Shown: positions 9,549 to 16,753 of the stretch, in pieces | Position numbering within the stretch: the first letter of the stretch is position 1 | Layout of the letters: every line of letters begins with the position of its first letter | NCBI GenBank assembly: GCA_028708815.1 | Contig: JAQVYB010000015.1 | Coordinates: 1 to 38,941 of the forward strand | Direction of reading: 5' to 3' | From: Kiritimatiellia bacterium | GTDB lineage: Bacteria > Verrucomicrobiota > Kiritimatiellia > RZYC01 | Length of the DNA: 38,941 bases | Program-made: the position numbers and the translations under genes | Notes under the pieces: model-generated | What the model was told of the DNA's origin: nothing | Database searches by the model: none | What the model saw: only the letters and a program-made list of their open reading frames with translations

Positions 9549-9570
9549 ATGAACACGGATAAACACGGAT
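9544..9570 (+). repeat. Three 10-bp direct repeats (CACGGATRAA type)
   Basis: CACGGAT occurs at 9544, 9554 and 9564, an exact 10-bp period, with the third copy diverging after the core. The start codon of the DNA-binding partner of the toxin lies inside the array. One-turn spacing could suit autoregulatory binding, but similar short arrays also occur as dispersed intergenic repeats. Confidence 0.6.
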
Positions 9571-10601
9571 TGGATACACGCAAAGATTTGACGGTTTCTG
9601 CCGTGGATCGGCAGAATATTCTCAATAATCCATACGCCTTGCAGGAGATCGAAAAGGCGGCTGAAATCAAGGGAATCGCGTTCGAGGGGCGGAGGGTCGT
9701 TCTCAAGGAACAGGTGGCGTCGTTTTTTGAGGTGGATGTTCGCACGATTGAGAATTATCTTTCGAGGCACGCTGAGGAACTGGCCCAAAACGGGTACGAG
9801 GTGATTCGCGGCAAGCGGTTGAAAGAGTTCAAGATGCGCATTGCTGAGAATGATGTTCCCGAAACGATTTTCGGGAACATATCCAAGACCCCTCAATTGG
9901 GCATCTTCGACTCGCGGGCCTTCCTGAACCTGGCCATGCTGATGACGGAGAGCGAGCGAGCCCGGGTTTTGCGACAGGTCATGCTGGATATCGTCATTGA
10001 CACGATCAACGCGCGTACGGGAGGCGGGACCAAATACATCAATCAGCGGGACGAAGACTTCGTTGTCTCGTATTTCGAGGAAGAGAATTACCGCAAGGAG
10101 TTCACTGATGCGTTGCGTGACTGCGTGGACATGGGGCAGGCGAAGTACCCTATCTATACCGATAAGATATACGTAAGCATTTTTCGAGAGAATGCGCAGG
10201 AATACCGGCGGATTCTGCGTTTGCACACCAAGGACAAGGTGCGGGATACGCTATACTCCGAGGTTCTGGACCTAGTGGCGTCCTACGAATACGGTTTTGG
10301 CAGAAAACTGCGCACCGAATTCGAGAAGGTCGGCAGGAAGCTTACCCCATGGGAAGCCGATCATTTGTTTGCTGCATTTGAAAAGGAACCGCATTGGACG
10401 CCCTTGGTGGAGAAAGCCCGCAATAAAATGGCCAGCCGGGATCTTGCTTTTCGCGATGCGTTGCATCATCAACTCAAGGAATACGTGTCGCCTGTGAAAC
10501 GAGATGATTTTGAGCGATTTCTGGGCGAGAAGAGCAAGGAACTATCGGAACGTTTGGAGGAGGCAAAGGATGTCATGAAGCGGTTGAAGGAGCGTGAATA
10601 A
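9549..10601 (+). CDS. DNA-binding protein paired with a Doc/Fic toxin (probable antitoxin or regulator)
   Basis: A 350-residue protein of the type commonly found directly upstream of death-on-curing toxins. The N-terminal part (about 15-80) carries a helix-turn-helix-like segment (VASFFEVDVRTIENYLSRH). A conserved central part reads GIFDSRAFLNLAMLM and GGGTKYINQRDEDF. The C-terminus is a helical, charged region (about 300-350). A GAGGGG sequence lies 8 nt before the ATG. The stop overlaps the toxin start (TAATG), so the two are translationally coupled. It probably neutralises the toxin and may bind the 10-bp repeats at its own start. That role is an inference. Confidence 0.8.
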   Translation: MNTDKHGLDTRKDLTVSAVDRQNILNNPYALQEIEKAAEIKGIAFEGRRVVLKEQVASFFEVDVRTIENYLSRHAEELAQNGYEVIRGKRLKEFKMRIAENDVPETIFGNISKTPQLGIFDSRAFLNLAMLMTESERARVLRQVMLDIVIDTINARTGGGTKYINQRDEDFVVSYFEEENYRKEFTDALRDCVDMGQAKYPIYTDKIYVSIFRENAQEYRRILRLHTKDKVRDTLYSEVLDLVASYEYGFGRKLRTEFEKVGRKLTPWEADHLFAAFEKEPHWTPLVEKARNKMASRDLAFRDALHHQLKEYVSPVKRDDFERFLGEKSKELSERLEEAKDVMKRLKERE

Positions 10602-11068
10602 TGCCGCTGATCTACATCAATCTTGAGCAGGCGATTGAAACACACCGCAAAACGGTCGAGGTCAGCGGCGGCGGCGCTATGGGGCCTCTTGACCTGGGGC
10701 GGCTGGAAAGCGTATTGGAACACATTCAAAACGACCTGTACTACCCGGAGTTTGAGGATAAACTTACGCATCTCTTCTTCAGCGCCAACAAGCTCCATTG
10801 TTTTCAGGATGGCAACAAACGGATCGCTATTTCGCTGGGGGCGCAGTTTCTCTTGTTGAACGGCTATGTCTTTGCCGCAACCCGATTTCTGCGCGAAATG
10901 GAAAACATCAGCTACCATGTTGCTGCAGGGCGGATTGACAAGGATTTGCTCAAGGAAATCATTTCAGCGGTCATTGAGGACCGTACGGAAGATGAGGCTT
11001 TGAAAATGAAGATACTTCACGCGATCAGCCGTGAACGCATCCTGGAGAACGTGCAGCGCGTTCAGTAA
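10601..11068 (+). CDS. Doc/Fic-family toxin (death-on-curing)
   Basis: A 155-residue protein with the family core motif HCFQDGNKR at residues 66-74, a Doc-like version of HxFx(D/G)xNK/R. Doc of phage P1 phosphorylates EF-Tu, whereas many Fic proteins transfer AMP. The D-G-N-K-R form is closer to Doc. It is coupled by a one-base overlap to the upstream DNA-binding gene, giving a toxin-antitoxin pair. All core residues are present, so it is probably active. The reading frame of a restriction-helicase remnant begins immediately after its stop. Confidence 0.9.
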   Translation: MPLIYINLEQAIETHRKTVEVSGGGAMGPLDLGRLESVLEHIQNDLYYPEFEDKLTHLFFSANKLHCFQDGNKRIAISLGAQFLLLNGYVFAATRFLREMENISYHVAAGRIDKDLLKEIISAVIEDRTEDEALKMKILHAISRERILENVQRVQ

Positions 11069-11269
11069 GGGAACGACATTCCGAAGTCGTCCAAATTGCT
11101 TGAGGATTATCTCATAAGGGCCGAAGCAGATGATCCGAAAACAACGGTCTATTCCTTCCCGAATTTCTCCGTCGAAATGGAGACCGGCACGGGAAAGACG
11201 CATGTCTATTTGCGGACGATCTTCGACCTGAACGCGAAGACTCATGCGGAGAGCGAATTTGAGAAGTAA
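11069..11269 (+). pseudogene. Remnant of a type III restriction enzyme (Res helicase) subunit
   Basis: An open frame directly after the toxin stop, about 66 codons to a TAA at 11267. It contains the characteristic Res block FPNFSVEMETGTGKT (Walker A TGTGKT) followed by HVYLRTIFDLN. This is motif I of type III restriction helicases, which are normally around 900 residues. No start codon with a ribosome binding site is visible, and the rest of the helicase and the methyltransferase are absent, so this is a decayed fragment. It shows that the locus once carried another defence gene. Confidence 0.8.
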
Positions 11270-11756
11270 TGCATTATGCAGGATCAGCTCTTCGGAAGTG
11301 ATTTCGAAAAGCCCTTAAACAACTGATGGAAGTGAAGAAAGAATATACCGCGAACAGACGCGAATAAACGCCCATGCAATGAAATGATTCACCTGATTTC
11401 TGTAAGCGAATCTTCGATCAGCAACAAAACAACTTGAATGCTCTGGCGACAATACCATGACCATCCGAAGTGCTCGATAATCTTTCTGTGGTTCAGATCA
11501 ATGAATCTAAAACTCGTCCCATGTCTACCGAAAAAGCACCCTTCTTCCTACCGGACATCACCATGCGCGAGCGATGAGTTATACTCCTATAAACATCAAC
11601 TCTCTCGCATTGTTCTTATATGATCCCATAGCTTATCTTCATAAGGGTCATCCTCGATTATTGCAAAATACCAGACAATATTGCAGACTCTTTTTCGGGA
11701 TGGAAAACTTATATATTAATAGTATGGCGTCCTGATCAGATGCTTGGAGATCAACA
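11270..11756. other. AT-richer gene-free stretch before the STAND gene
   Basis: No gene is supported here. A short MQDQLFGSDFEKPLNN frame (from 11278) may be a second fragment of the restriction locus. At about 11348-11370 there is a degenerate CGCGAA-type repeat resembling the array at 9544. The last 60 bp are AT-rich with TATATT at 11712-11717, a likely -10 region for the next gene, but no good -35 box is seen. Confidence 0.45.
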
Positions 11757-14700
11757 ATGTCGGAGTGCAACGATAAGCAGGGAGCCGCTCTTTTAACACC
11801 TCTTCTGGAGATCGGAAAGCGCTGGCAGGAGGTCAATCCGGCCCGGGCCATGGGAGGCATCTGGGCTGCAAGCGGTTTCCAATATCAGTTCGACGTCTTG
11901 CTAAGCCGTGTATGCGACGCTTTCGGACGTGAGCATGAAACCAGCCGCCTCCCGACATCCGCAGGCCCGGTCTTCAGCGAAATCCTTAGCGACGTTCTCG
12001 AATCCGACGTCAAGGGCGGTTGCGCATACGTTGTGCAGGTCAAGCATACAGTGAGGGCAGCACAGCTTCGTGCTGCGTTTGAGGAGTTTCTGTCGGTAGC
12101 GCACTTCATCAATGTAGAGGCCCCCGACTGGCTTCCTCTTCTACGGTTCCAGGTGGCAACGCAATCATGCGAAGTCGCAGATACCACCTCGCTCGTGGAT
12201 TCATGGATGCGCAAGATTACCGGGTTCCCGGAGCCCATAAGGCAGGCCCTCAGCGGCATCTCTGTACTGGAAGTGCCTGATCCTGTGGACGAGATTGTCA
12301 CGTTCCTCATCAATAGGCTTTTCTGTGCGCAACCCTACGATACGCTTTCAGAACTGCGCGGCATGATCATTGGCAAGGCGGCAGATCCCGTCTCCGGGCT
12401 CCATGATGTTTGGCAGCAGCTCACGGCTATTGCCCGGAATGCGGAACCGTCAGGCGTCGTGCATTGGGTCAGTGACGATGACCGCCCCCCAAAGGCCGTG
12501 AAGCTCGGTGCAGTGCTGGTGGGCGAGAACCCGCATTTCCCGCATCTCCGGGCTGGCTGCTTCGCGCTTCGCCCACAATACGAGATTCTTACTTCACGTT
12601 TCCTCGACTTCATCGGCAAGGAAGCGGGCGAGGAGGCCAAACAGCCGCTGTTCTGGATCGGCGGTCGATCCGGCGCCGGAAAGAGCGTCGCCCTTCTACA
12701 CCTGCTTGCGCATGTAAAGCAGACACAAAACATGGACATTCTATATCTTCGGGGCCAATCCGGCCTGCCTGAAGCATTGCGAATGGCACTTAAAGGGACC
12801 AAGGGCGGCCGGCGCGTGATTATCGGCGTCGATGATCCCTTCGCTCCGGGCGAAACAGGATTGCAGAGATGGGAGCAAGCACTTCGGGTTACGTCCTCAT
12901 TGCAGGAAAGGAGTGACTCTCCGAACTATCCGATACTCGTCTGCTGTGGGCCTGCGGAACAGCGGCTGCGATTGGAAGCCGCGTTTATGGAACTCGTAAC
13001 TATCGGCGGATGGGATGTTCCAAATGCGACGGTGGAAGATGTTGAGGGATTACGAACCTGGTATTTAGCGAGAACCGGACGACTTGCTCCGGAGATCGAC
13101 GGCGAGAACCTGTTGCTCGTGCAGCTCTTTTTCGAGTGGCGGACAGGAAAGAGGATTCCGGAGTTCGCCTCGCGCTTGCGGAGGCGATTGGAGGCACTGA
13201 AGCCAAAGGCTTTCTATGTCGTCGCGCGCGCCCTGTCAGCAAATCGTCTATACTTGGACTACCCTACGCGGGCCCTACAGGATCTTCGGCTTACGCCCCA
13301 GGAACGGGACTCGCTCAATATCCTGCTGCGTGAGCACCACATGGAGCCTTCATTCGCAGAGGGAGAGCATGTGCGCATCGCGCACCCTCACCTTGCCAAT
13401 GCAGTTTACGAGACATGGTTTCCGTCGGACGGTACTGCCGAGGAAACTCGGGCGGATCATGTCAGCCGTTTGCTCAGCGCGTATGTCGAACCGGCGGGAG
13501 AGCCTGGAGGGCAAACAGCCCCCATCTGGGGGCTTTGCCACAGCTTGCGTTCCTCGGCCGCCTCAACCGTGAGGAGCAGACTAACGGAGGCGGATATTCA
13601 TGCTCCCCTCTGCGCTGCATACAAGGCAACGGCAATGCCGGTAAAGAGCGGCCCAGACCTAATTCCCTTGCTTCCTGCCTGGATTGAGCTTTCCTCGCTC
13701 CTGCAGCAGTTGCCCTTGGCACCTCCTCCCGCCAGTCTGGCAATGGCCCTTCTCCGAGATGCTGCGGTGCCGTGCCGCGGGACGCGTCTTGTGTGCCACA
13801 AGCTTATGGAATTTATGAGCACATTAGGGCTCCCCACGGAGGTGAAAGAAACAGTTGTTTCTGTGTTGCGGCGCTTTCCGGATTGGCATGAGTGGCCATA
13901 TGTTGCCGTGGACCTCCTTCAACGGCTTCCCGAAGACGGCGAAGTCCTGAAGCTTTGCTCGGACTGGCTGGGAGTTCAAACGCATGCTACGCGAGGCATG
14001 GCACAACTGCTGACGGAATTGATTGCTGTCCGGCCGGGCGACCGGCGCGTTCTTGCCTTGGCCGTCGGATCTCCGTGCATGCGATCACCGTACGAAGGGC
14101 GCGTGGTCGCCGCGGCCTGTCGCAACTCAGCCCCGGCGGCAGGCGAGATGTTCGAATCCTGGCTGCGGGACCATTCACGGGAAGCACAAGCGGCACGAAC
14201 GCTTGGTCAAGGAATCCTTGGTGGTCTGCCCGGCGCGATTCAGGCAGGAACCAAATGGTGTGAGCGCTGGCATGCGGAAGACAATGCAACATGGGTTCTT
14301 GAACCGCTTCTTGACTTGGGGCCTGATCCAGACCTTTGCCGCAAGTGGGCTCTGATATGGCTATCAACCCACGGCGGGCCCGCAGCCAGTTATGTCGTGG
14401 AACGTTTGCTCAGGCAGCACCCAGGTAGCAGAGAGGTCCTGGACGCCGCACACCGATGGCTGGAGGCCGAGTCCCCGGAGCTTCCGCACTGGTTGCCCGT
14501 CTGGCTCACCACTTCGCGGCAGGAGACGAGGGCGTTGTCGGCGCTCATCAGTCTTGGCATGGAGGGACTACGGGATGCACCCATCACGACACGACACTGG
14601 GCACCCGCTTGGCGACAGCTCTGGCGAATCGCCCATGGCGACCCATCTCTCCTTGACCTCGCCGTCGAGAAGCTCTCACAGGCGCAAGCGCTTCAAAGCA

Positions 14701-16067
14701 ATCGCACTTGGCTGCGCGCTTGGCTCACGGTGTTCCGGGAAAGCAGTGCGGAGCGGAGGATAACAGATCTTGGTATTCAATGGCTAAATGCGCGCTTGAC
14801 CACTCGAAGGTGGGCGATGACTTGGACGGCAATCGCTGACGTCAGAAGAGAGGATGATGTGGTCATTGACTGCGCAATTCGTTGGTTGGCACACAACACC
14901 GGTACGTGGCGAGTGTGGGCCGCTATCTGGCTGCGTTGTCACGAGATGGCAAAACAGAAGTCTCATGAGTTGCGTCTGGTTGCCGCTGCACGCGAATGGT
15001 TGCCCAAGGTGCCTTGGACGGAAATACCTGCGTGGACGACAATATGGCAGAAGACGGCCAAGGGCGGGGACACGACGGAAGGCATTGCGGACGTTGCCCA
15101 CGACTGGCTTGTAGATGATGATCACTGGGGTGTGGGTGATTGGGACAAGATATGGAGCATTCTTTGGCACGCCGAAAGTCATAGCGACCTTCGCGACATG
15201 GGCCTCGTGTGGTTGCGAGAGGGTGTTGCGGAATTTTCGACATGGCCAACGGTCTGGGGTCAAATTTGGCAAGGGGAGAAAGATGGCGAACTCCCCTGTC
15301 TTGCTATCCGGTGGCTCAAACAGCGCCATCGTTATAAGCACGGTTCCTGGGTTCGTGTCCTCCGTGATCTCGTAAATGCTGGCGCTTTCACGGACGACCT
15401 AGCCGACATCGGCATTGCGTGGCTGAAGAGTGCTCCGTCGCGTTCTAATTGGTGGGCGGATGTGTGGACGACGACAGCGCGCCCGTTCGATCCGCTGCCC
15501 AGAGAACTGGTGCATCTTGGAAACAGATGGCTCGATCAGAGCCAGCCGAGTAGTAACGCCTGGGGCAAGGTTGCGAGTCGGCTACTGAGCAACAAGACGC
15601 TCCACGCCTCTGTCGCGAAGCATCTCCGACGTTTTCTTGATGAGCAACCAACCGCAAATCAATGGGGAAGCCTGTGGCGGATATACTGCTCAATGCCCGA
15701 GGCCGTTGAACCCATGGCTCTCGGTCGCAGGTGGCTGACGATGGTGTTGAAGCGGAATCCGAGCAACACAACCTGGCACATGGTCTGGCAGGATATGATA
15801 GAGCGAGAAAATGGGACCCCCGCTACTGAACTATGCGATCTTGGTAAGCAATGGCTTGCCGTTGTCCCGGCCAAGATTACGGCATGGCCGAATGTCTGGA
15901 TACGGCTTTGGGAAATGGATCCGTCCATCGAGCTTCGGGAATTGGGGCAGGGGTGGATTGAGAAGGGCTATGACCGGAATCCGACGTATGAGCGTGTGGT
16001 TATCGCATTGCGTGGATTGCCAATTGGACGGGAGGGAAAACCCCATAAAACAAATACGACAGAATAA
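11757..16067 (+). CDS. Avs-like STAND NTPase: nuclease-like domain, P-loop ATPase and 14 Trp-rich repeats
   Basis: A 1436-residue protein with GGAG 7 nt before its ATG. The N-terminal domain (about 30-130) has G40-F-Q-Y-Q44, Asp84 and then Q94-V-K96-H. This spacing fits PD-(D/E)xK nucleases of the DUF4297/Cap4 kind. The ATPase has Walker A GGRSGAGKS (302-310) and Walker B VIIGVDDP (Asp359, Asp360). A winged-helix-like segment near residue 555 reads HVRIAHPHLANAV. The C-terminus (911-1409) is 14 tandem repeats of 33-41 residues, pattern W..VW..(L/I)W...L..LG..WL. Avs proteins share this order of effector, STAND ATPase and helical sensor. By analogy the repeats would detect a phage protein and the nuclease would degrade DNA. 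The target is unknown, and I do not recognise this repeat type as TPR or ankyrin. Confidence 0.82.
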   Translation: MSECNDKQGAALLTPLLEIGKRWQEVNPARAMGGIWAASGFQYQFDVLLSRVCDAFGREHETSRLPTSAGPVFSEILSDVLESDVKGGCAYVVQVKHTVRAAQLRAAFEEFLSVAHFINVEAPDWLPLLRFQVATQSCEVADTTSLVDSWMRKITGFPEPIRQALSGISVLEVPDPVDEIVTFLINRLFCAQPYDTLSELRGMIIGKAADPVSGLHDVWQQLTAIARNAEPSGVVHWVSDDDRPPKAVKLGAVLVGENPHFPHLRAGCFALRPQYEILTSRFLDFIGKEAGEEAKQPLFWIGGRSGAGKSVALLHLLAHVKQTQNMDILYLRGQSGLPEALRMALKGTKGGRRVIIGVDDPFAPGETGLQRWEQALRVTSSLQERSDSPNYPILVCCGPAEQRLRLEAAFMELVTIGGWDVPNATVEDVEGLRTWYLARTGRLAPEIDGENLLLVQLFFEWRTGKRIPEFASRLRRRLEALKPKAFYVVARALSANRLYLDYPTRALQDLRLTPQERDSLNILLREHHMEPSFAEGEHVRIAHPHLANAVYETWFPSDGTAEETRADHVSRLLSAYVEPAGEPGGQTAPIWGLCHSLRSSAASTVRSRLTEADIHAPLCAAYKATAMPVKSGPDLIPLLPAWIELSSLLQQLPLAPPPASLAMALLRDAAVPCRGTRLVCHKLMEFMSTLGLPTEVKETVVSVLRRFPDWHEWPYVAVDLLQRLPEDGEVLKLCSDWLGVQTHATRGMAQLLTELIAVRPGDRRVLALAVGSPCMRSPYEGRVVAAACRNSAPAAGEMFESWLRDHSREAQAARTLGQGILGGLPGAIQAGTKWCERWHAEDNATWVLEPLLDLGPDPDLCRKWALIWLSTHGGPAASYVVERLLRQHPGSREVLDAAHRWLEAESPELPHWLPVWLTTSRQETRALSALISLGMEGLRDAPITTRHWAPAWRQLWRIAHGDPSLLDLAVEKLSQAQALQSNRTWLRAWLTVFRESSAERRITDLGIQWLNARLTTRRWAMTWTAIADVRREDDVVIDCAIRWLAHNTGTWRVWAAIWLRCHEMAKQKSHELRLVAAAREWLPKVPWTEIPAWTTIWQKTAKGGDTTEGIADVAHDWLVDDDHWGVGDWDKIWSILWHAESHSDLRDMGLVWLREGVAEFSTWPTVWGQIWQGEKDGELPCLAIRWLKQRHRYKHGSWVRVLRDLVNAGAFTDDLADIGIAWLKSAPSRSNWWADVWTTTARPFDPLPRELVHLGNRWLDQSQPSSNAWGKVASRLLSNKTLHASVAKHLRRFLDEQPTANQWGSLWRIYCSMPEAVEPMALGRRWLTMVLKRNPSNTTWHMVWQDMIERENGTPATELCDLGKQWLAVVPAKITAWPNVWIRLWEMDPSIELRELGQGWIEKGYDRNPTYERVVIALRGLPIGREGKPHKTNTTE
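14487..15983 (+). repeat. Region encoding 14 tandem Trp-rich helical repeats
   Basis: Codons 911-1409 of the STAND protein. Units begin at residues 911, 947, 984, 1018, 1051, 1092, 1128, 1162, 1197, 1231, 1267, 1301, 1338 and 1375. Most units have two Trp in the first helix and LGxxWL in the second. The DNA copies have diverged, so this is old duplication rather than a recent expansion. The stretch before residue 911 (about 850-910) contains weaker units. Confidence 0.8.
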
Positions 16068-16233: not shown

Positions 16234-16485
16234 TCATAGGCGTTTTTTAGCAATAGCACGACCAGAGGCGGTCTTGAGATAGCGTTCAAATTCGAGCGCT
16301 TGCAAGCGATCCGTGAATGCAATGGCGGTTTTGATGCGCCAGGGACGGAATTTGGCCGTGTGTGGATCGCCGCCGCCATTGTGGTGTTTGACACGCTGAT
16401 CGAGGTTCTCGGTGAACCCCGTGTAGAAGTGTTCTGGATCGTTTGTGGATTGAAGAATATAGACATAATAGAAAGGTTGTTTCAT
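16234..16485 (-). CDS. Solo GIY-YIG nuclease domain protein
   Basis: An 83-residue single-domain protein. It opens with YYVYILQS, then HFYTGFTENLDQRVKHHN (the GIY-YIG core with the catalytic Arg) and ends with YLKTASGRAIAKKRL, as in the UPF0213/YhbQ group. GGAG lies 5 nt before the ATG. Such small nucleases may act on DNA, but their role is poorly known. It lies on the same strand as the tRNA-Pro, just beyond a duplicated tRNA 3' end, which suggests insertion next to the tRNA gene. It could be a small mobile nuclease or merely a passenger. Confidence 0.9.
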   Translation of the reverse strand: MKQPFYYVYILQSTNDPEHFYTGFTENLDQRVKHHNGGGDPHTAKFRPWRIKTAIAFTDRLQALEFERYLKTASGRAIAKKRL

Positions 16486-16563
16486 CTATTCTCCGGCGTG
16501 CCGAGCCGTAGCTCACGAAGCTGGAATGCTGAAAAGCCCGCCTGCGTTTTCACTTCGGCGCGG

Positions 16564-16599
16564 CAGCCTTCGCTATCACTCCGTGCTGAGCGAAGGCTG
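16564..16599. repeat. 11-bp perfect inverted repeat with 14-nt loop
   Basis: CAGCCTTCGCT (16564-16574) is repeated inverted as AGCGAAGGCTG (16589-16599). It abuts the duplicated tRNA 3' end and lies between it and the GIY-YIG gene. It could end transcription of the tRNA region or mark an inserted element. There is no T-run after it on either strand. Confidence 0.65.
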
Positions 16600-16657
16600 G
16601 TCGGGGTGACTGGATTTGAACCAGCGACTTTCCCGACATCCGTCGGGACGCTCTGCC
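16598..16657 (-). pseudogene. Partial tRNA-Pro copy (3' half with altered anticodon arm)
   Basis: Positions 16598-16630 are identical to the last 33 nt of the tRNA-Pro gene at 16677-16709, including the T arm, the acceptor strand and CCA. Further 5' the similarity continues only as GGCAGAGCG of the D arm. The anticodon arm is replaced by a palindrome TCCCGA-n6-TCGGGA (16631-16648). The 5' acceptor strand is missing, so it cannot be a working tRNA. It may be a relic of insertion at the tRNA 3' end. Confidence 0.65.
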
Positions 16658-16676
16658 GAATCGCTTTGTTCAAAAA

Positions 16677-16753
16677 TGGTCGGGGTGACTGGATTTGAAC
16701 CAGCGACTTCTTGGTCCCGAACCAAGCGCTCTACCAGGCTGAGCCACACCCCG
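16677..16753 (-). tRNA. tRNA-Pro (anticodon CGG)
   Basis: On the minus strand it folds into a complete cloverleaf. The acceptor stem CGGGGTG pairs with CACCCCG. The D arm is GCTC/GAGC. The anticodon stem CTTGG/CCAAG encloses the loop TTCGGGA with anticodon CGG, and the T arm loop is TTCAAAT. The discriminator A is followed by an encoded CCA. It stands alone, with its 3' end facing the accessory region, a common target for integration. Confidence 0.95.

Follow-up and report, generated by a model that had tools for sequence, protein, structure and literature searches.

The nearest described counterpart of the locus considered here is SegB of the phages T4 and T6, a free-standing GIY-YIG endonuclease encoded among tRNA genes (PMC2988022, PMC13096335). 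It cuts within tRNA genes, with RAWTSGAAC as the motif of its strong site (PMC13096335), and drives the tandem amplification of tRNA and segB genes (PMC2988022, PMC13096335). By our reading, this motif would correspond to the reverse complement of the T-loop sequence GTTCSAWTY. Partial parallels are also offered by integrase-bearing genomic islands, which commonly leave tRNA 3' fragments (PMC9897764), and by the REP/REPIN repeats with their RAYT transposases (PMC3733652, PMC3116915), which are short imperfect palindromes with a GTAG-like tetranucleotide that occur as tandem and non-autonomous copies. The locus that invites these comparisons lies in a 38,941-nucleotide stretch (the window: contig JAQVYB010000015.1 of the Kiritimatiellia bacterium assembly GCA_028708815.1). 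We consider it likely that two small mobile units are stacked here, both of a kind directed at tRNA and tmRNA 3' ends and each coding for no more than a minimal GIY-YIG nuclease.

All components of the locus are on the minus strand. The host gene is an intact tRNA-Pro(CGG) with an encoded CCA (16677..16753), the sole tRNA detected at the locus by ARAGORN and Rfam (read as 16753..16677). It is followed by a 79-bp unit without a nuclease (16598..16676), delineated from its sequence and from nuclease-bearing relatives, one of which is found on contig C114 of the same genome. This unit comprises a linker ending in a D-arm-like remnant (CGGCAGAGCG; linker at 16649..16676), an 18-nt hairpin, TCCCGAC-GGAT-GTCGGGA, that occupies the position of the anticodon arm (TCCCGACggatGTCGGGA; 16631..16648), and a partial copy of tRNA-Pro covering tRNA positions 45-77 (16598..16630) that matches the intact tRNA at 33/33 positions. 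On the minus strand the outer copy reads TTTTTGAACAAAGCGATTCGGCAGAGCG-TCCCGACGGATGTCGGGA-AAGTCGCTGGTTCAAATCCAGTCACCCCGACCA, i.e. D-arm-like remnant, hairpin and tRNA positions 45-77. An earlier note on this DNA had described a 33-bp direct repeat (16598-16630 and 16677-16709) whose outer copy lacks a 5' half and has a replaced anticodon arm. The repeat is indeed exact, with a spacing of 79 bp and the tRNA-Pro 3' end as its inner copy, and the replacement is the 18-nt hairpin. Such a 33-nt identity at 79 bp spacing is far beyond chance expectation: the next-longest direct repeats in the 2.5 kb searched are at most 17 nt.

Directly beyond the partial copy is a second element of ~364 bp (16234..16597), hereafter type 1, which consists of a palindromic block and a GIY-YIG ORF and extends from the first base 3' of the CCA to the stop codon. 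The block opens with a left arm, A (GCCTTCGCT; 16589..16597), directly 3' of the CCA. Its partner, A' (AGCGAAGGC; 16564..16574), is followed by a near-invariant TG able to pair with the CA of the CCA. A' together with a hairpin, H2 (TGCCGCGCCGAAG..CGCAGGCGGGC; 16536..16572), matches our covariance model R1 with 50.3 bits, and a further segment, B (GAGCTACGGCTCGGCACGCC; 16495..16514), lies 3' of H2. The 11-bp inverted repeat noticed previously is present (16564-16574 / 16589-16599) and includes, as two of its bases, the CA from the CCA of the outer copy. The solo GIY-YIG gene that had been noticed alongside it is an intact ORF of 83 aa (16234..16485, read as 16485..16234; Pfam PF01541, E=1.6e-13) with conserved catalytic residues: Y9, Y21, G23, R31 and E67 are invariant among 23 homologues. 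The nearest solved relatives of this nuclease, as judged by sequence, are UPF0213 BH0048 and SLX1 (PDB 1zg2, 7cq2), which have the same minimal catalytic domain. Searches with Rfam of the window stretch and 15 related loci recovered nothing but tRNA, the sub-threshold matches having the appearance of chance or tRNA overlap, and yielded no group I intron match around the nuclease gene.

Comparison with related loci separates the two components. In the sister loci L005-L008, the GIY-YIG unit is placed directly on tRNA-Pro and the partial copy is absent between them. Thus, the proposal of a small mobile unit at tRNA 3' ends stands with respect to the link to tRNAs and tmRNAs and the movement between tRNA genes described below, and fails with respect to there being one unit: of two different, stacked units, one ends in the partial tRNA copy and the other includes the GIY-YIG gene. 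In the simplest history, type 1 would first have been located directly on tRNA-Pro, as in L005-L008. A nuclease-less unit of a second kind, type 2, would later have entered the 3' part of the tRNA, leaving tRNA-Pro complete and shifting type 1 outwards by 79 bp. The exonuclease gene neighbouring the window site was not found in the short flanks of four related tRNA-Pro units, and hence the orthology of those four insertions with the window site is unproven. The hairpin pattern TCCCGACnnATGTCGGGA with the tRNA bases that follow it has five occurrences in the window genome and none outside it among 388 genomes searched, and accordingly the combination of hairpin and tRNA half was nowhere encountered in relatives without the GIY-YIG gene. 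Apart from the gene in the window, a single convincing GIY-YIG match to the window protein, 33% identical to it, is present in this genome, and that gene too is situated 3' of a tRNA-Pro, past three tandem 69-bp units (the C114 array) that each combine a hairpin with a tRNA 3' half, the last of them diverged.

We collected 170 distinct homologues of the nuclease from 388 genomes of the phylum and from a genome-wide contig scan, of which 159 loci with at least 300 nt upstream were used for counting associations. A T-arm with CCA in the sense orientation is present upstream of the GIY-YIG gene in 142/159 loci, as opposed to 7/159 in antisense upstream, 5/158 in sense downstream and 1/158 in antisense downstream at the same loci, and no complete tRNA was detected antisense upstream of the nuclease among these loci. 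This bears out the association of such genes with tRNA 3' ends that the earlier note had suggested looking for in related genomes. The hosts among the 142 are 102 complete tRNAs, representing at least 15 amino-acid types, and about 34 tmRNAs. Since the T-arm and acceptor end are common to tRNAs and tmRNA, the target is most simply that part of the molecule. The host 3' ends stay intact or are restored, as had been supposed for the unit in the window. Many of the loci come from metagenome-assembled genomes (MAGs), against whose assembly errors the Bradyrhizobium genomes and the single-contig genomes are the best guards. Searches with the units returned no match in 50,697 phage records and one distant match in plasmids. 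In many bacterial phyla, such units occur precisely at tRNA and tmRNA 3' ends, and they appear to form an undescribed class of mobile elements. The tmRNA hosts are frequent, with L064, L066, L067, L102, L123, L242 and others as examples. Separately, the nucleases of L063 and L064, from deltaproteobacterial MAGs, are 72-73% identical to that of the window, as close as those from the window's own class, which suggests transfer between phyla.

The type-1 block shows a characteristic anatomy. Arm A, with the consensus NYCTTCGC, is found directly 3' of the CCA, and in 87/102 units its 7 leading nucleotides pair, allowing one mismatch, with an A' that precedes TG, as against a mean of 1.7 in shuffled sequences. 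The TG is nearly always part of TGYC; as candidates for A' with TG behind them were preferred in the search, the TG alone does not constitute independent evidence. Position 1 of A forms with A' the pairs GC (67), TA (10) and CG (4), and position 2 the pairs CG (58), TA (12), GC (7) and AT (3). This covariation of both positions with A' indicates that the unit starts at the first base 3' of the CCA. A' continues into H2, giving the overall pattern TGYC-n-CGSC-GWA-[stem]-GWA-GSCG-GRC, in which GWAG, often in the form GAAG, sits inside the internal loop of H2. In H2, 98.9% of cells are paired, and 60 two-sided changes are seen versus 15 in shuffles. Segment B (~GAGCTWCGGCTnGGCAnGCC) precedes A' in some units and follows H2 in others, the window among them. 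We read the block as approximating two inverted copies of one motif, such that A..B on the other strand would resemble H2. At the right end, similarity between copies at different sites usually stops within ~10 nt of the nuclease stop codon, which therefore marks the end of type 1. Wobble pairs are nearly absent: they occupy 2/471 cells in H2, and the A/A' helix has 12 G-T and 7 A-C pairs as against 870 Watson-Crick pairs. We considered an RNA function for the block in view of the strong covariation; however, the scarcity of G-U pairs argues, short of proof, for a DNA rather than an RNA structure. In several type-1 blocks a small palindrome (~GACTTGTCnCGCCGTAG..CGAAGGCGGAAGC) is inserted inside H2 (L017, L077, L104, L142, L155; L219, L223, L227, L228), and the same palindrome also stands alone in Bradyrhizobium.

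The block is not confined to nuclease-bearing units. A scan with R1, which models A' and H2 and was built without any tRNA information, gave strong matches in 52/388 genomes. A close GIY-YIG gene is present in 44 of these 52, as compared to 82 of the 336 others (p=7e-17). At the level of loci, 25/29 strong blocks are directly 3' of a tRNA or tmRNA and 12/29 lack a nuclease; likewise, most strong R1 matches in Bradyrhizobium are 3' of tRNAs and usually nuclease-less. Thus, block-only copies are common. An alternative is that the block is no more than a REP-like repeat of the ordinary kind, dispersed by a Y1 (RAYT) transposase, with the GIY-YIG gene a passenger in repeat-rich tRNA trailers. The GWAG-flanked hairpins of the block do resemble GTAG-tagged REPs, similar hairpins exist away from tRNAs in the window genome, and Y1 transposases are encoded in 20/24 carriers and are present in the window's own genome. 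Nevertheless, none was detected (E<=1e-5) in G361, G389, G390 and G391, all of which have strong blocks, most of the checked ones at tRNAs. Moreover, the blocks are fixed behind the CCA, starting at the first base 3' of it, and co-occur with the nuclease, and the type-2 units differ in their hairpin and yet have a like target and likewise contain a GIY-YIG gene. We accordingly regard the REP-like repeat as an unlikely account. In the window genome (G000), about a dozen REP-like repeats, flanked by sequences of the type GTCCACAGACGTGTCGCGCCGWAG-hairpin-CGAAGGCGGATT, share the H2 hairpin and lie away from tRNAs, on C227, C180, C172, C40, C174 and C15 (L182, L183, L186, L190, L192, L193). The same genome has solo type-1 left ends after ACCA with no tRNA (L042 on C125 and L043 on C123), as if the unit were able to insert at, or carry, a CCA elsewhere.

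Type 2 is defined by a second GIY-YIG subfamily and another unit architecture. In G068, a tRNA-Pro is followed by two tandem 493-bp units, each made of a nuclease, a hairpin and tRNA positions 18-74, and in G248, a tRNA-Thr is followed by three tandem ~350-bp units of a nuclease, a D-arm remnant, a hairpin and tRNA positions 44-76. Further cases are found at tRNA-Pro, Asp, Ser, Met and Thr. The hairpin is located in, or replaces, the anticodon arm, or is located in the T-arm, and in G068 it is in front of the displaced tRNA part; outside the window genome its sequences are different. The 79-bp unit of the window and the C114 array belong to this kind. Stacks comparable to that in the window are seen at L014, L128, L136 and L252, while at L066, a tmRNA, the type-1 unit is followed by a decayed tmRNA 3' end 694 bp on and then by a terminator-like hairpin. 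Among type-1 loci, a distal duplicate of the tRNA 3' end accompanies a few (L014, L066, L136) and is missing from most. Displaced 3' copies of tRNA or tmRNA, as observed in the window, L002, L066, L128, L252 and the type-2 loci, are what would be expected if ordinary integrase-type islands at tRNA 3' ends had decayed to fragments retaining a nuclease gene. The 3' end as target and the retention by type-2 units of a complete tRNA with a displaced 3' fragment are features shared with such islands. However, the present units, of 79 to about 690 bp, have no integrase and are too short for one, the GIY-YIG gene being their sole long ORF, and copies that are complete and nearly identical measure no more than 350-500 bp, their ends being fixed and their content constant. 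Further, the displaced copy usually has an added hairpin and is missing at most type-1 loci, where the unit starts after the CCA. Hence, an origin as island remnants seems quite improbable.

Evidence for mobility comes from comparisons between loci. In two genera of one family, the units of L143 and L060 share 94% identity over 471 bp, a span that runs from the first base 3' of the CCA to the stop codon. L143 is at a tRNA-Ala(GGC) and L060 at a tRNA-Val(CAC), tRNAs that are 62% identical, and the downstream flanks show no similarity, the upstream flank of L143 being too short for comparison. A tree of 97 nucleases, though poorly resolved, implies 44 changes of host tRNA versus a shuffled mean of 53, which points to frequent, though not free, host switching; on this same poorly resolved tree the lineage of the window's nuclease stays with tRNA-Pro. 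At an orthologous tRNA-Ala(GGC) site of Bradyrhizobium with flanks 87-92% identical, G394 has a different block, and its nuclease is 53-56% identical to those of its neighbours. Between G396 and G389 the upstream sequence is 98.4% identical, and the nuclease ORFs differ at 42/234 nt. At tRNA-Val(GAC) of Bradyrhizobium, the site is empty in two related genomes whose upstream flanks match; other genomes have one or two tandem blocks there, and G389 has a different block. By codon position, the nuclease differences number 4/2/34, 11/5/48 and 7/2/33, indicating purifying selection on the protein. Sequence comparison thus shows the site specificity, the ends, the covarying palindromes, the presence of one unit at different tRNAs, the replacement and empty sites, and the selection.

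The same comparisons bear on the possibility that vertical inheritance explains the block, as a trailer or terminator at tRNA 3' ends, and that the nuclease serves the host in tRNA maturation. Such a role would suit the strict position and orientation behind tRNA and tmRNA and the terminator-like hairpin enclosed in some blocks (e.g. L028, L145). It is at odds with the patchy distribution (52/388 genomes), the absence or replacement of the block at orthologous tRNAs of related species, the nearly identical copies at different tRNAs and the near lack of wobble pairs, and we hold it to be highly improbable. The enclosed hairpin, which ends in a T-run, is found in the A-B loop of L028, L029, L145, L146, L151 and L155, and through it the unit may supply the terminator of the tRNA.

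These observations lead to a proposal in which both architectures are propagated by the nuclease, the sole protein common to full-length units of both types. A type-1 unit starts with its palindromic block at the first base 3' of the CCA and ends with the stop codon of the nuclease ORF behind the block. A type-2 unit would insert inside the tRNA gene, leaving a complete tRNA on the left; in full-length copies the nuclease ORF comes next, and on the right lies the displaced 3' portion of the tRNA, in which a hairpin replaces or interrupts the anticodon arm or T-loop. We infer that the nuclease is the mover: like SegB in tRNA genes, it would cut the conserved T-arm/acceptor end of any tRNA or tmRNA, whereupon host repair from an occupied locus would copy the unit in, with the palindromes acting as end signals. 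Such cutting and repair would explain the range of targets, the occurrence of units in tandem and the finding of replaced units at orthologous sites, and with tRNA function preserved, insertion would cost little. It leaves unaccounted for the entry into a tRNA without a matching right flank, for which the palindromes may serve as end signals. As most type-1 loci have no displaced tRNA fragment to their right, their insertion is not the simple duplication seen in type 2. Speaking against the model, the intact upstream tRNA retains its T-arm, and how an occupied site would escape cutting is not accounted for. Further, the block-only copies and the eight block genomes without a close nuclease allow for another mover acting on the palindromes.

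With SegB the units share a solo GIY-YIG gene by tRNA genes, and its amplification recalls the tandem arrays in G068 and G248. However, SegB is phage-borne and has been studied in allelic inheritance, whereas the present units are chromosomal, with defined palindromic ends, nuclease-less copies and unrelated tRNA and tmRNA hosts. Considered as homing endonuclease genes more generally, the site replacement in Bradyrhizobium fits allelic copying, but the 471-bp unit at unrelated loci with different tRNAs is not explained by allelic copying alone. No description of such units was found in the open-access literature. Given their presence at unrelated tRNAs, beyond allelic homing, together with the transposon-like palindromic ends and nuclease-less copies, the class is, as judged against that literature, apparently new in kind, and probably works in part like a free-standing homing endonuclease. 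We lean, at somewhat better than even confidence, towards a class of elements of up to ~0.5 kb in many phyla, whose sole protein, a GIY-YIG nuclease of ~80 aa, would insert or copy itself at tRNA/tmRNA 3' ends, with the target recognized via the T-arm/CCA and the palindromes acting as folded DNA, without a recombinase, in two stacking architectures and with non-autonomous derivatives moved in trans.

Genomes commonly contain small GIY-YIG proteins as well as partial tRNA copies, two features that have not been linked in the open-access literature searched. The family would account for many of the solo GIY-YIG genes in annotations, and for many tRNA fragments and palindromes 3' of tRNAs, and would rank among the smallest protein-coding mobile elements, with a nuclease reaching safe genomic sites without a recombinase. 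In Bradyrhizobium and its relatives, a given tRNA site can be empty, occupied or replaced, which renders the mechanism directly testable.

Just beyond the unit in the window (9549-16067), the other strand encodes a 350-aa protein without a Pfam match and a Fic/DOC protein (10601-11068), and, in the same neighbourhood and on the same strand as the latter, a 1436-aa protein with a weak match to nSTAND NTPases; these genes possibly form a defence-like cluster.
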